Below are positions 1 to 55,636 of a stretch of DNA of 64,000 nucleotides, piece by piece. The notes under the pieces were generated by a model, which was not told where the DNA came from, made no database searches, and saw only the letters and a program-made list of their open reading frames with translations. This DNA comes from Opitutia bacterium (GTDB lineage: Bacteria > Verrucomicrobiota > Verrucomicrobiia > Opitutales > UBA953), in assembly GCA_947453335.1 (NCBI GenBank), contig CANGFP010000002.1, positions 62,001-126,000 of the forward strand, given 5' to 3'. A program made the position numbers and the translations under genes. How positions within the stretch are numbered: the stretch's first letter is position 1; each line of letters begins with the position of its first letter.

Positions 1-1296
1 CTTCACCTGCTCGATGACTTCGTTGAGCATGTCGCCGAGGTAGATCGAGATGATGGCGGGCGGGGCTTCGTTGGCGCCGAGGCGGTGGTCGTTGCCGGCC
101 GAGGCGACGGAGGCGCGGAGCAGGCCCTGGTGGAGGTCGACGGCGCGGATCACGGCCGAGCAGAAGGTCAGGAACTGGGCGTTCTCGTGGGGGCTATGGC
201 CGGGCTCGAGGAGATTGCCGACGCCGGCACCGCCGATGGACCAGTTGACGTGCTTGCCGGAGCCGTTGACGCCCGCGAAAGGCTTTTCGGCGAGGAGGCA
301 GACGAAGCCATGCTTGGCGGCGACGCGCTTGAGGAGCGTCATCGTGAGCATCTGGTGGTCGTGGGCGACGTTCGCGGATTCGTAGATCGGGGCCACTTCG
401 AACTGCGCCGGGGCGACTTCGTTGTGGCGGGTCTTGATCGGGATCCCGAGCTTGAAGCACTCGCGCTCGGTTTCCATCATGCACGCGAGGACGCGGTCAG
501 GGATGGTGCCGAAGTACTGGTCCTCGAACTCCTGGCCCTTGGCCGGCTTGGAGCCGAAGAGGGAGCGACCGCAGGTGTAGAGGTCGGGGCGGAGATGGAA
601 GAGGCGGGTATCGATCAGGAAGTACTCCTGCTCAGGGCCGCAGGAAGCGGAGATGAAGCCGTGCTTCTTGCCGAAGAGAGCGAGGACGCGGGAGGCGGCC
701 TTGTTGACGGCAGCCATCGAACGGAGCAGCGGGGTCTTCTTGTCGAGGGCCTCGCCCTTCCAGGACACGAAGGCGGTCGGGATGCAGAGCGTGGAGCCGT
801 TCTCGGTATCGAAGATGTAGGCCGGAGAGGTCACGTCCCAAGCGGTGTAACCACGGGCTTCGAAGGTGGAGCGGAGGCCGCCGTTCGGGAAGGAGGACGC
901 GTCAGGCTCGGCCTGGATCAGCGCCTTGCCGGAGAACTGGGCAAGGGTACCATTGCCGTTGGGCTCGAAGAAAGTGTCGTGCTTCTCGGCGGTGGTGCCG
1001 GTGAGCGGGTAGAACACGTGCGCGTAGTGGGTCGCACCGCGCTCGAGGGCCCAATCCTTGATGGCGGCGGCGACGACATCGGCGGCGGCGGCGTCCAGGG
1101 TGATGCCGCCTTCGATGCTGGCCTTGAGGGACTTGAACACGTCCTTCGGCAGGCGCTTCTCCATCTTATCGAGGGAGAAGACGTTCTGGCCGTAGATCAG
1201 GTCGATCTTCTCGTTGCGGAAGTCGAAGCTGCCCTGAAGGCGAGGCTGAGAAGCAATCGCCTCGATGGCGTTGCGGCGGGCTGGGTTGGTGCTCAT
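1..1296 (-). CDS. glnN: Glutamine synthetase type III, N-terminal 432 residues (cut by window edge)
   Basis: This enzyme makes glutamine from glutamate, ammonia and ATP in the cytoplasm. The frame starts at ATG 1294-1296 ([15 protein letters not shown]) and stays open to base 1, so the C-terminal part (about 300 residues in GSIII) lies outside the window. Type III hallmarks are visible: an early GSFDFRNEK segment and [16 protein letters not shown] near residue 140. GPEQEYFL near 218 and [15 protein letters not shown] near 287 supply metal and substrate ligands, and [12 protein letters not shown] near 342 is the ATP/glutamate loop. No Shine-Dalgarno is evident. A sigma-54-type promoter and three operator-like palindromes lie just upstream, which fits nitrogen control. 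The family call is firm. The link to the regulator at 53.4 kb is inference. Confidence 0.95.
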
Positions 1297-1385: not shown

Positions 1386-1446
1386 TGTCTATTTTTAGAC
1401 ATAAATGCCTATTTTAAGGCATAAAAAGCCTGCCTATTTCCAGACA
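1386..1446. promoter_or_regulatory. Three 16-bp palindromic operator-like sites upstream of glnN
   Basis: Three related 16-mers lie in an AT-rich stretch: TGTCTATTTTTAGACA (1386-1401), TGCCTATTTTAAGGCA (1406-1421) and TGCCTATTTCCAGACA (1431-1446). They share the dyad TGYCTW-N4-TAGRCA, imperfect in the third. Their centres lie about 54, 74 and 99 bp upstream of the -12 GC, typical enhancer distances for a sigma-54 activator. The distal copy overlaps the stop codon of the preceding gene. The same motif recurs at 53335-53350 before the NtrC-type regulator. Binding by that regulator is inference. Confidence 0.7.
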
Positions 1447-2441
1447 TAGGTCAGCCGGGCGAAGTAGGTGGTGTCCCATTTGGACTGACTAGCTTGAGGA
1501 ATTGACCGGAAATCATTGGAAAGGCCGACCCGCAACGACAGCGGACCAGGTCCCCGCAGGAGGTTGAGGGTGGATTCGTGCCGGATGTAGTAATCTGCGG
1601 TGCGCTGGAACGAGGGAACGAAGGAGAGCGAAGAATCCAAGGAAGCCCAGCCGAGCTCACGGGTCAGGACCAAGCCTAGGTCCGCCGAAGGCGCCGAGAG
1701 ATTGGCTTGGCCTGGCGTCGCATAGCGTTCCGTGCGATGGGCCAGACCGACGCGGGCATCGAGCTTGCCGGCGCCATCGGTGAAGAGGCGCAGACCCAGT
1801 CCGATGGCGTTCACGGAGAAGAAATCCACGCGACGGGCGTTGTCGTAGCCGCTGTCGGTGCGCGCGTACCAGAAGACGATGTTCGTGGGGTTCGTCTCGT
1901 ACGAGAGATTCAGGTGCAGGTCGTCCGCCGAGGTCTGGTTGCCGGCGGTCGCGCGCACGACGCGGATGCTCGCGAGCACGGTGTCGGTCTCCTTCACGCC
2001 CTTGGCCTGGTAGCCCGCGCTGAAGCCGCTGCCTTGGGCGACCCCCGAATGGCCGGAGAGGTCGAAGTCCGCCTGCATCGTCCATTTGCGCTGCCCCCGC
2101 GAATCCAAGGGCCGCGCCTCGGGTTCCCGCCAAAGCTCGAACCGGCTGTTGAGATCGCAGGTCTCCGCGCCACCCGACGACGCCACGCGGCCCGCGCTCG
2201 CGGAGGCGATGCCGCGGTTGACGACGCCGCCGATGCTCACGGCCACGGGTGAATCCGTCCGGAAAGATTCCACCTTCTGCAAAGGGATGCGTTGGACCAG
2301 TCCGCCCAACGCCGGCAACGAGACCTGAAGGTAGCCGTCGGAAGCGCGTTCGATCTGGCCGCGCAGGAACGTCCCGTCTGTCAAGGTGACGGAATCCGCG
2401 AAGACCCCGAGGGGGGCGAGGAGTAGCAGGAGGCGTTTCAT
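1434..2441 (-). CDS. Secreted/outer-membrane beta-rich protein, DUF481-like
   Basis: This 335-residue protein starts at ATG 2439-2441, giving the signal peptide MKRLLLLLAPLGVFA; a further ATG 39 bases upstream has no signal. After the signal comes DSVTLTDGTFLRGQIERASDG, the short N-terminal module seen on many DUF481/porin-like proteins that names an item to be sensed or bound. The C-terminal two thirds alternate polar and hydrophobic residues (LHLNLSYET, ARVGLAHRTERY, FARLTYVWK) and end in a hydrophobic aromatic strand, as expected for an outer-membrane beta barrel. It is collinear with glnN but separated by the sigma-54 control region. Its function is unknown. The barrel call is inference from pattern. 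Confidence 0.7.
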   Translation of the reverse strand: MKRLLLLLAPLGVFADSVTLTDGTFLRGQIERASDGYLQVSLPALGGLVQRIPLQKVESFRTDSPVAVSIGGVVNRGIASASAGRVASSGGAETCDLNSRFELWREPEARPLDSRGQRKWTMQADFDLSGHSGVAQGSGFSAGYQAKGVKETDTVLASIRVVRATAGNQTSADDLHLNLSYETNPTNIVFWYARTDSGYDNARRVDFFSVNAIGLGLRLFTDGAGKLDARVGLAHRTERYATPGQANLSAPSADLGLVLTRELGWASLDSSLSFVPSFQRTADYYIRHESTLNLLRGPGPLSLRVGLSNDFRSIPQASQSKWDTTYFARLTYVWK

Positions 2442-2508
2442 CGACGAATCCAGACAAACAAACGGACGCAGGGTTGCCAACCTTCGTGTGCTCCGTTGTC
2501 ATCCGGAC

Positions 2509-27813: not shown

Positions 27814-28674
27814 TTAGACCTGCTTCACCTTGCGGCCGTTGCGGCGCAGGATAATCTGGTTGTTCGAAGCCTTCGCCTTGGTGCGCGTCGGGAAACCCTT
27901 CGCGAGCTGACCCCAGGGCGACTTGAGATGCTGGCGACCGCCACCACCCTTCTTCTTGCCGCCGCCACCGCCGTTGGGGTGGTCGACCGGGTTCATGGAC
28001 ATACCACGCTGGCGGGGACGGATGCCCTTCCAGCGGTTGCGGCCGGCCTTACCGAGGCTGGCGTTATGGTGATCGACGTTGCCGACGATGCCGACGGTGG
28101 CGCGGCAATCGGCGTTGATGTAACGCTGTTCGCCGGAAGGCATGCGCAGGATGGCGCGGTCGCCTTCGATACCGAGGAGTTGGGCGAAGCCGCCGGCCGA
28201 ACGGGCGACCTGGGCGCCCTTGCCGGGCTCGAGCTCGATGCAGTGGATGAAGGTCGCCGGAGCGATCAGGCGGAGAGGCAGCGAAAGACCAGGGGTCAGG
28301 CGCTCCTGGGCCTTGGTGGTGCTGACGACGACGTCGCCTACCTTCAGGCCATCGGGGGCGAGGATGTAGGTGTTCGTCTTGTCGGCGTACTCGAGCAGGG
28401 CGAGGTGCGCGGTGCGGTTCGGATCGTACTCGATGCGAAGCACGGTGGCCGGAGCGTCCAGGCGGTCGCGACGGAAGTCGATCACGCGGTAGAGCTTCTT
28501 GTGGCCTCCGCCTCGGCGGCGGGAAGTGATGCGACCGTAGCAGTTACGGCCCATGGCGCGGTGATTGCTCTCGGTGAGGGAGCGCTCAGGACGGCCAGGG
28601 TGCAGGCCCTCGGTCTTGACGCGAACGAGGAAGCGCGTGCCGGGGGTGATGGGACGATGGGTGACGATAGGCAT
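27814..28674 (-). CDS. rplB: 50S ribosomal protein L2
   Basis: The 286-residue L2 begins MPIVTHRPITPGTRFLVRVK. It contains GRNCYGRITSRRRGGGHKKLYRVIDF and NVDHHNASLGKAGRNRWKGIRPRQRGMSMNPVDHPNGGGGGKKKGGG, including the conserved His of the NPVDHPhGGG peptidyl-transferase-proximal loop. The His before GGG is replaced by Asn here. It is in standard S10 order. Confidence 0.97.
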   Translation of the reverse strand: MPIVTHRPITPGTRFLVRVKTEGLHPGRPERSLTESNHRAMGRNCYGRITSRRRGGGHKKLYRVIDFRRDRLDAPATVLRIEYDPNRTAHLALLEYADKTNTYILAPDGLKVGDVVVSTTKAQERLTPGLSLPLRLIAPATFIHCIELEPGKGAQVARSAGGFAQLLGIEGDRAILRMPSGEQRYINADCRATVGIVGNVDHHNASLGKAGRNRWKGIRPRQRGMSMNPVDHPNGGGGGKKKGGGGRQHLKSPWGQLAKGFPTRTKAKASNNQIILRRNGRKVKQV

Positions 28675-52646: not shown

Positions 52647-53279
52647 TCACCGGACCGGCTCGTCGCCCGTCTCCGCCGGCTGCGACGTGGACAACGCGCT
52701 GCCCGTGGCCCAATCCCACACCGCCTTGGGCTTCGCCAGCAGATCGCGAGCCGCGCCCCACCAAGGCCGCCACCCATCGCCGAAGCCCGCGACGTAGGCG
52801 CAGGCGGGGAGACCGCGGCGGTCCGCGATCCACAGCGCGCGGTCGCAGTGCCAACCTTGCGAGACGAAGACCACGGGCTCCCCCGGGAAGGCCGCCGCGA
52901 CGCGATGCACCGAATCGATCGTCCGCCAGCCGTACGGGTCGCGGACGATCGGGCACGTCACGCCCGCGGCGCGCAGGTCGCGGGCCATCGCATGCGTCTG
53001 CGGCTCGATGCCGGAGACCACGGCGAGCTTCACGCGACCCGCGAGGCACAGACTGGCTGCGGCCTCGATGCGCGGACGATAGGTGCCGGTCGGCTCCTGG
53101 GTCTGCCCGACGAATTCGTTGGTCCCCAGCAGCACGAGGACGGACCCCGCGGGGACCTGTTCGGAGCGCGTAAAACTACGCCCGAGACCGGCGGACCACA
53201 GCCAGACGTTGGAGACCACGGCGAAGGTCACCAAAAGGACTAAGGCACCCCACCCTACCTGCCTGGCTTTTTTGAGCAT
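52647..53279 (-). CDS. SanA/YdcF-type DUF218 membrane protein
   Basis: The 210-residue protein starts at ATG 53277-53279 (MLKKARQVGWGALVLLVTFAVVSNVWLW), with one N-terminal membrane helix. The longer open frame upstream would run through the regulatory region and lacks similarity. DUF218 features are GSVLVLLGTNEFVGQ, YRPRIEAAASLCLAGRVKLAVVSG near residue 72, DPYGWRTIDSVHRVAAAFPGEPVVFVSQGWHCDRALWIADRRGLPA near 116-160 and a Trp-rich C-terminus. SanA is linked to envelope barrier function in E. coli; the activity is unknown. It is divergent from the NtrC-type regulator. Confidence 0.82.
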   Translation of the reverse strand: MLKKARQVGWGALVLLVTFAVVSNVWLWSAGLGRSFTRSEQVPAGSVLVLLGTNEFVGQTQEPTGTYRPRIEAAASLCLAGRVKLAVVSGIEPQTHAMARDLRAAGVTCPIVRDPYGWRTIDSVHRVAAAFPGEPVVFVSQGWHCDRALWIADRRGLPACAYVAGFGDGWRPWWGAARDLLAKPKAVWDWATGSALSTSQPAETGDEPVR

Positions 53280-53334
53280 CCGGAAACCATAGAGCCGCGA
53301 AAATAGGCCGCAAAGGTCATTCAACACCCCCGAT

Positions 53335-53350
53335 TGCCCAAAAATAGGCA
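53335..53350. promoter_or_regulatory. 16-bp palindrome matching the glnN operator motif
   Basis: TGCCCAAAAATAGGCA is a near-perfect dyad (TGCC...GGCA) differing at few positions from the reverse complement of the glnN copy at 1406-1421. Its centre is 75 bp upstream of the -12 GC of the regulator promoter, against 74 bp for the middle glnN site. Half-sites TGCCTA (53360-53365) and AAAATAGGC (53300-53308) flank it. It may serve as the autoregulatory enhancer site. Confidence 0.65.
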
Positions 53351-53403
53351 CATGGTATTTGCCTAAAGACTCATATTTGGCAAAAAAGCCTTCATCCGCT
53401 CTC

Positions 53404-53418
53404 TGGCACGCTTTCTGC
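53404..53418 (+). promoter_or_regulatory. Sigma-54 (-24/-12) promoter of the NtrC-type regulator
   Basis: TGGCACGCTTTCTGC matches TGGCAC-N5-TTGC with one change (CTGC). GG and GC have the required spacing. The predicted transcription start falls at about 53430, one base before ATG 53431, which would make the mRNA essentially leaderless. Apart from the glnN element, I found no other comparable match in an intergenic position. Confidence 0.75.
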
Positions 53419-53430
53419 CTACTTTTATCC

Positions 53431-54936
<1,506 letters not shown>

Positions 54937-54985: not shown

Positions 54986-55636
54986 ATGCTACCCCATGCT
55001 TACCTCCGGACCGCGGCCGCGTCGGCCTGCGTCCTCCTCCTCGGCGCCGCGGCCTCGCTCGCGGCGGACGCCGTCTCGCTCTTCGACGGCAAGTCCCTCG
55101 CGGGCTGGAAGCCCTCGAAGAACTCCCCCGAAGGCGTCTACAAGGTCGTCGATGGCGTGCTGCAGATCCGCGGCGGCCAAGGCCACCTCTACTACGTCGG
55201 CGAAGACGGGAAGGCCTCCTTCAAGAACTTCGAGTTCACCGCCAAGGTGAAGACCTACAAGGGCGCCAACTCGGGCATCTACTTCCATACCGCCTACCAG
55301 GACGGCGGCTGGCCGGCCGCCGGCTACGAGTGCCAGGTCAACGCCACGCACGCCGACAAGAAGAAGACCGGCGGCCTCTACGCGGTGAAGGACGTCATGG
55401 ACGTCGCGCCCGCCCCGGACGACGAATGGTTCGACTACCGCATCCGCGTCGAAGGGAAGCGCATCCAGATCTGGATCAACGGCAAGCAGACCGTCGACTT
55501 CACCGAGCCCGCCGACTGGACCCCGCCGAAGGGCATGGCTGGCCGCAAGGTCGGCGCCGGCACGTTCGCGCTCCAGGCCCATGACCCGGGCTGCAAGGTC
55601 GACTACAAGGACATCAAGGTCCAGGTGCTGCCTTAA
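54986..55636 (+). CDS. Secreted DUF1080 (3-keto-disaccharide hydrolase-like) protein
   Basis: The 216-residue protein has a signal peptide (LRTAAASACVLLLGAAASLAA) and one concanavalin-like DUF1080 domain. This runs VSLFDGKSLAGWKPSKNS, WEFTAKV-like FKNFEFTAKVKTYKGANSGIYFHTAY near residue 85, YECQVNATHADKKKTGGLYAVKDV near 113, WFDYRIRVEGKRIQIWINGKQTVDF near 150, and a final GTFALQAHDPGCKVDYKDIKVQVLP. Some family members cleave 3-keto-glycosides. The family is strongly expanded in Verrucomicrobia and Planctomycetes. Confidence 0.93.
   Translation: MLPHAYLRTAAASACVLLLGAAASLAADAVSLFDGKSLAGWKPSKNSPEGVYKVVDGVLQIRGGQGHLYYVGEDGKASFKNFEFTAKVKTYKGANSGIYFHTAYQDGGWPAAGYECQVNATHADKKKTGGLYAVKDVMDVAPAPDDEWFDYRIRVEGKRIQIWINGKQTVDFTEPADWTPPKGMAGRKVGAGTFALQAHDPGCKVDYKDIKVQVLP

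Follow-up and report, generated by a model that had tools for sequence, protein, structure and literature searches.

The window (the whole stretch of 64,000 nucleotides that was analysed) belongs to a genome assembly (G000) of 1.13 Mb that is 63% complete. On its forward strand, positions 53431-54936 encode a 501-amino-acid protein, here P1, which was identified from its translation and its Pfam and NCBIfam matches as an orphan NtrC-like response regulator. Pfam places a receiver at residues 9-118 (Response_reg), followed by an AAA+ sigma-54 activator domain with a GAFTGA motif at 148-314 (Sigma54_activat) and a Fis-type helix-turn-helix (HTH) at 454-489 (HTH_8). The receiver match is full-length and can be aligned with solved NtrC receivers. 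The GAF domain and nif targets that mark NifA were not found, P1 having a receiver instead of GAF according to Pfam. The best of all NCBIfam models for P1 is ntrC (TIGR01818), with a score of 477.8 bits against a cut-off of 558.6, which leaves P1 below the curated threshold for NtrC equivalogs. The neighbouring genes in the window encode DprA, a DUF218 protein (divergent and upstream, 52647-53279, reverse strand) and a 3-keto-disaccharide hydrolase family protein (downstream, 54986-55636, forward strand). None of them is a kinase, and no NtrB kinase gene adjoins P1, as a preceding inspection of the letters alone (the sequence-only reading) had noticed.

The promoter region of P1 contains a sigma-54 promoter, TGGCACGCTTTCTGC (TGGCAC-N5-CTGC), at 53404-53418 on the forward strand, exactly where it had been proposed. 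It has the -24 GG, the -12 GC and the fixed spacing of this promoter class, and rpoN is present in the genome. The promoter was kept in the same-genus orthologs examined, with TGGCA[CT] and the -12 TGC present in the sequenced ones. Upstream of it lies an operator dyad, TGCCCAAAAATAGGCA, at 53335-53350 (forward strand), with 73.5 bp between its centre and the T of the -12 TGC. The position of this dyad agreed with the earlier description, but the exact consensus TGYCTW-N4-TAGRCA did not hold, as the regulator copy deviates from it by one mismatch. A dyad at 72.5-74.5 bp was the best site in 33 of 35 orthologous P1 promoters.

The same arrangement is found at the other end of the window, upstream of glnN (1-1296, reverse strand, with its 3′ part outside the window), which encodes a type III glutamine synthetase (GSIII; Pfam GSIII_N and Gln-synt_C); no other glutamine synthetase signature was found in the 63% of this genome that is assembled. 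Its sigma-54 promoter, TGGCACGGGCGGTGC, at 1339-1353 on the reverse strand (read from 1353 to 1339), is conserved among relatives, and three dyads lie upstream of it on the same strand. The proximal operator, TGTCTAAAAATAGACA (1386-1401), and the middle operator, TGCCTTAAAATAGGCA (1406-1421), are centred 52.5 and 72.5 bp from the -12 T, respectively, and the corresponding offsets of -60 and -80 were conserved in 24 promoters. The spacings of 73.5 bp for P1 and 72.5 bp for the middle glnN site reproduce the close agreement reported previously as 75 and 74 bp. The distal dyad, TGTCTGGAAATAGGCA (1431-1446), is a doubtful operator. It overlaps the stop codon of a DUF481 gene (1434-2480, reverse strand) that immediately precedes glnN in the same orientation, reads ..TYVWK* in frame as the last codons of that gene, and is not retained in most relatives. 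This location at a coding end, together with the poor conservation, suggests that the distal dyad may be a coincidence. A third match to the sigma-54 hexamer in the window, at 28554, was dropped because no plausible start codon was found within 130 bp, leaving the P1 and glnN elements as the only two convincing ones, as had been stated.

Upstream regions of P1 and glnN from relatives showed TGGCA[CT]-N5-NTGC and the dyad at almost the same distance. P1 orthologs in same-genus genomes have about 82-93% identity (intact copies), and these genomes also carry glnN orthologs. A strict pattern required the -24 hexamer to be accompanied by a dyad at a distance of 28-58 bp. Of the 55 genomes of the genus, 51 contained it, with 93 matches in total, compared with 2 for the reversed pattern used as a control. 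When a matrix built from the relatives' sites was run across the whole own genome, 6 matches of at least 16 bits were obtained, whereas local shuffles averaged 0.8 and never exceeded 3. A chance origin of the promoter-dyad pair was excluded by these two comparisons. The top matches of the matrix in the own genome were glnN, P1, the upstream region of ilvB and the first amtB. The genome-wide motif search and footprinting that had been suggested as a check thus found the pair to be kept in the genus. The opposite outcome, a motif scattered over the genome without a link to sigma-54 promoters, was not seen, there being few strong dyads in the own genome that lack a sigma-54 element.

The dyad shared by P1 and glnN extends to further genes, so that the sequence-only reading was right about the sharing but too narrow in its regulon of two. 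In relatives, glnB, which encodes PII, has the promoter in 27 of 27 cases with upstream sequence and the dyad in 26 of 27 (one-mismatch pattern). The glnB sequence that was read includes the PII T-loop tyrosine region (..YRGSEYTVDFLP..). Because glnB was not found in the own, 63% complete genome, its status as a target rests on the relatives. All 11 anchored copies of amtB are preceded by both promoter and dyad. A scan of the own genome for sigma-54 elements added a second amtB and a cluster running from a porin gene through urtABC to urease genes, in which UrtA, UrtB and urease alpha are among the named products; the dyads of the porin, urtB and second amtB promoters are weak (4-10 bits). This cluster (G000 C1:19960-29119, L180) has two sigma-54 promoters, one of them internal before urtB, and the -12 element of the internal promoter also begins a dyad-like 16-mer. 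Apart from ilvB, the genes with the dyad are nitrogen uptake or assimilation genes or lie in a cluster with them. Judged from promoter and operator sequence, a glutamine synthetase, an ammonium transporter and PII are all under sigma-54 promoters, as in NtrC systems. The ilvB dyad, TGCCTAAAAACAGGCA (C3:4571; L220:4571-4586), is strong (21 bits) and lies upstream of this acetolactate synthase gene, with a thiD-like gene on its other side. No sigma-54 element was found at this dyad, which is possibly a repression site or a further target.

Beyond the genus, the strict pattern occurred at chance level, with 6 matches for the pattern and 6 for the control when 100 genomes from elsewhere in the order were scanned. 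The promoter and dyad were not found upstream of 16 order-level P1 orthologs inspected, and a GSIII match was absent in 19 of 20 order-level genomes checked for a close glnN. These three results indicate that the wiring is genus-specific, and the promoter-dyad pair is limited to one genus, with no other searched branch of the order having it. The idea that the operator arose deeper in the order was considered and rejected, as it was seen neither before order-level P1 orthologs nor before order-level amtB genes. Only in the sister genus G145 (L373) is amtB preceded by a weak dyad, TGCCCAAAGTTAGCCT, and a sigma-54 promoter, TGGCACAGCGGGTGC; this dyad is possibly an early form of the operator. 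The genus of the window offers a case of regulatory rewiring in which one ortholog family has an altered recognition helix and a new operator, together with a synthetase type that is rare among relatives.

The geometry of the sites was compared in 35 regulator, 24 glnN, 27 glnB and 15 amtB promoters. Relative to the -12 T, dyads start at -81 in the regulator, -80 and -60 in glnN, -59 in glnB, and -103 and -122 in amtB promoters. The dyad centres and the -12 element are about 52, 73 or 95 bp apart, in steps near two helical turns, and such near-whole-turn steps are the pattern expected of a looping activator that faces the polymerase.

In addition to the upstream operator, the P1 promoter contains a weaker operator-like 16-mer, TGCCTACTTTTATCCA (53416-53431, forward strand, 9.5 bits), which begins at the -12 TGC and spans the predicted transcription start. 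The distance from sigma-54 promoter elements to the transcription start is generally known, and the start of P1 is predicted at 53429-53431, 11-13 nt past the -12 TGC, which places it on or immediately ahead of the ATG (53431). In regulator and amtB genes (amtB: L308, L313, L318, L324, L326, L331 and L332), the ATG follows the -12 TGC by 12-17 nt. Given the usual sigma-54 start spacing, the transcripts of the regulator and the first amtB are predicted to be leaderless or nearly so. A dyad at offset 0 ranked second among 190 offsets in the regulator promoters (10.1 ± 1.6 bits, 35 promoters) and first in the amtB promoters (15.3 bits), and was much weaker in glnN (-11 bits) and glnB (-24 bits). 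This pattern suggests that the embedded dyad, a feature new here, serves as a self-limiting site for the regulator and the first amtB. It has a counterpart in the E. coli glnAp2 promoter, where low-affinity 'governor' sites limit glnA when NtrC-P is high (PMC3870243). In contrast to the governor sites, the candidate P1 limiting site overlaps the -12 element and thus lies on the promoter itself. The embedded 16-mers may instead reflect the promoter consensus combined with the constraints of a leaderless start codon, and not be operators at all, an explanation that bears on self-limitation only and to which we give a substantial chance, if not quite an even one. The left half of the 16-mer, TGCYT, is in part the -12 consensus, and both promoters with the 16-mer are (near-)leaderless. 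On the other hand, the right half keeps to the precise spacing of a dyad even though the sequences differ between the genes (CTACTTTTACTCA, TTAATAAAAAGCA), and the 16-mer is missing from glnB and glnN. The dyad in the -12 element lets self-limitation by a sigma-54 activator be tested directly.

Sigma-54 promoters require an enhancer-bound activator, and the own genome was found to encode two strong activators of this class; most genomes of the genus, near-complete ones included, likewise have two. The second one (G000 C1:51894-53291) has AtoC as its best NCBIfam family. In this protein the recognition helix, ISRRTLHRKL, hardly varies over the order, whereas the recognition helix of P1 differs in the genus and is mostly ITRATLRKRI elsewhere in the order. 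For the HTH 27-mer of P1, identity was 43.7% between genus and order and 63.9% inside the order; the corresponding values for the AtoC-like protein were 84.4% and 79.5%. Since the HTH of P1 has changed in the very genus that has the genus-specific operator, P1 is the likely binder of the dyad. Together with the footprinting, the nitrogen-related targets and the helical phasing, this co-change argues for the earlier proposal that a P1-type activator controls itself and glnN through the dyad, and we consider binding by P1, which would make its own gene a target, to be highly likely.

Under the leading alternative, the AtoC-like activator, acting with an AtoS-like kinase, would bind the dyad, and P1 would be a downstream target in this cascade instead of activating itself. 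Apart from P1, the AtoC-like protein is the one strong sigma-54 activator, and its plausible soluble kinase partner would settle the question of the input. This alternative appears improbable, however, as its recognition helix is nearly invariant across the order and yet the dyad is confined to one genus, and as the family that it matches best is AtoC and not NtrC. Moreover, a sigma-54 promoter without the dyad, TGGCACGCCTATTGC (C1:90054), has an inverted repeat of its own, CCGAAAAA..TTTTTCGG, that could be the AtoC-like site. This promoter (L183:10054), with the repeat upstream of it, precedes an AsmA-like gene followed by grpE. Binding of the dyad by an unrelated repressor or activator, with coincidental nearness to sigma-54 promoters, is very improbable: Fis-type sites do resemble other dimer sites, the C3:4571 dyad lacks a sigma-54 element and copies overlapping the -12 element seem repressive, but the near-integral helical spacing to the -12 element is held across four different genes, and strong dyads away from sigma-54 elements are few.

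The only soluble PAS histidine kinase found is AtoS-like (G000 C3:71502-72668, reverse strand), and its gene is followed by ispH in relatives (L245, L247). As a dedicated partner of P1 it was weakened as a candidate, because its orthologs directly adjoin the AtoC-like gene in other families (e.g. G055, G045, G040, G043, G054 and G037), and in the other families compared no P1 ortholog was found beside a soluble-kinase match. In the genus, the kinase gene lies apart from the AtoC-like gene (C3 versus C1 in G000), and the kinase could therefore serve either activator or both.

The promoter and site that P1 shares with glnN, amtB, glnB and, more weakly, urea uptake make it very probably the master switch of nitrogen starvation in this group of freshwater Verrucomicrobiota. 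We accordingly favour, with good though lesser confidence than in the binding itself, a reading of P1 as an orphan NtrC-like activator for nitrogen limitation that would govern itself and nitrogen-scavenging genes. Its receiver would be phosphorylated by a distant kinase, with nitrogen as the presumed signal. P1 dimers or higher oligomers would then bind 16-bp dyads of the form TGYYTA-N4-TARRCA about 52, 73 or 95 bp upstream of -24/-12 promoters, loop to sigma-54 RNA polymerase and open the promoter through ATP hydrolysis. The predicted targets throughout the genus are its own gene (positive autoregulation), glnN, glnB and amtB, joined in the own species probably by the second amtB and the porin-urea transporter-urease cluster. 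At a high P1 level, the dyad embedded in the -12 element would block the polymerase and cap the expression of P1 and the first amtB. A kinase-free or kinase-sharing variant of the NtrC scheme, which we regard as rather unlikely, would have the P1 level, and not a dedicated sensor, set the output: P1 would activate from the upstream dyads and, once abundant, shut off the P1 and amtB promoters through the -12 dyad. Alternatively, the AtoS-like kinase, whose gene has parted from its former partner in the genus, would serve both activators.

P1 resembles the NtrC (NR-I) of enteric and other proteobacteria (glnALG, glnK-amtB) in its receiver-AAA+-Fis architecture, the sigma-54 promoters and the upstream enhancers, and the predicted targets, namely a glutamine synthetase, an ammonium transporter, PII and the regulator itself, are those of an NtrC regulon. 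P1 differs in having no ntrB alongside and in scoring below the NtrC model cut-off, the synthetase is type III and not type I, and the P1 gene is under a sigma-54 promoter with a predicted (near-)leaderless start. The classical NtrC site is of the TGCACC type, unlike the putative 16-bp P1 operator. The dyad, which can be written TGY-N10-RCA, has the same 16-bp geometry as the NifA-type upstream sequence TGT-N10-ACA, whereas P1 differs from NifA in having a receiver instead of GAF and in its predicted targets, which are assimilation genes and not nitrogenase. P1 is in the same response-regulator class as the AtoS-AtoC and ZraS-ZraR pairs, and the other activator and the soluble kinase of these genomes match AtoC and AtoS best; P1 does not lie beside that kinase in the families compared.

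Sigma-54 regulons have been reconstructed by comparative genomics in Desulfovibrio (PMC4641369) and Clostridiales (PMC6615313) with the same logic, activator sites being inferred beside sigma-54 promoters. In the literature searched, we found no such reconstruction for Verrucomicrobiota and, for Verrucomicrobia, nothing useful about how nitrogen is controlled or about leaderless genes. The nitrogen regulon predicted here is NtrC-like, has an operator of its own, a synthetase of type III and a putative second operator embedded in the promoter, and has no kinase gene next to its regulator. The named relatives of P1 come from metagenome assemblies of freshwater Opitutae, and these bacteria, known chiefly from metagenomes, gain a putative nitrogen regulon whose operator is defined and whose candidate master regulator is named. 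One metagenome record titled Akkermansia muciniphila (L079) has an Opitutales-type P1 ortholog (57% identity), and its title seems doubtful.
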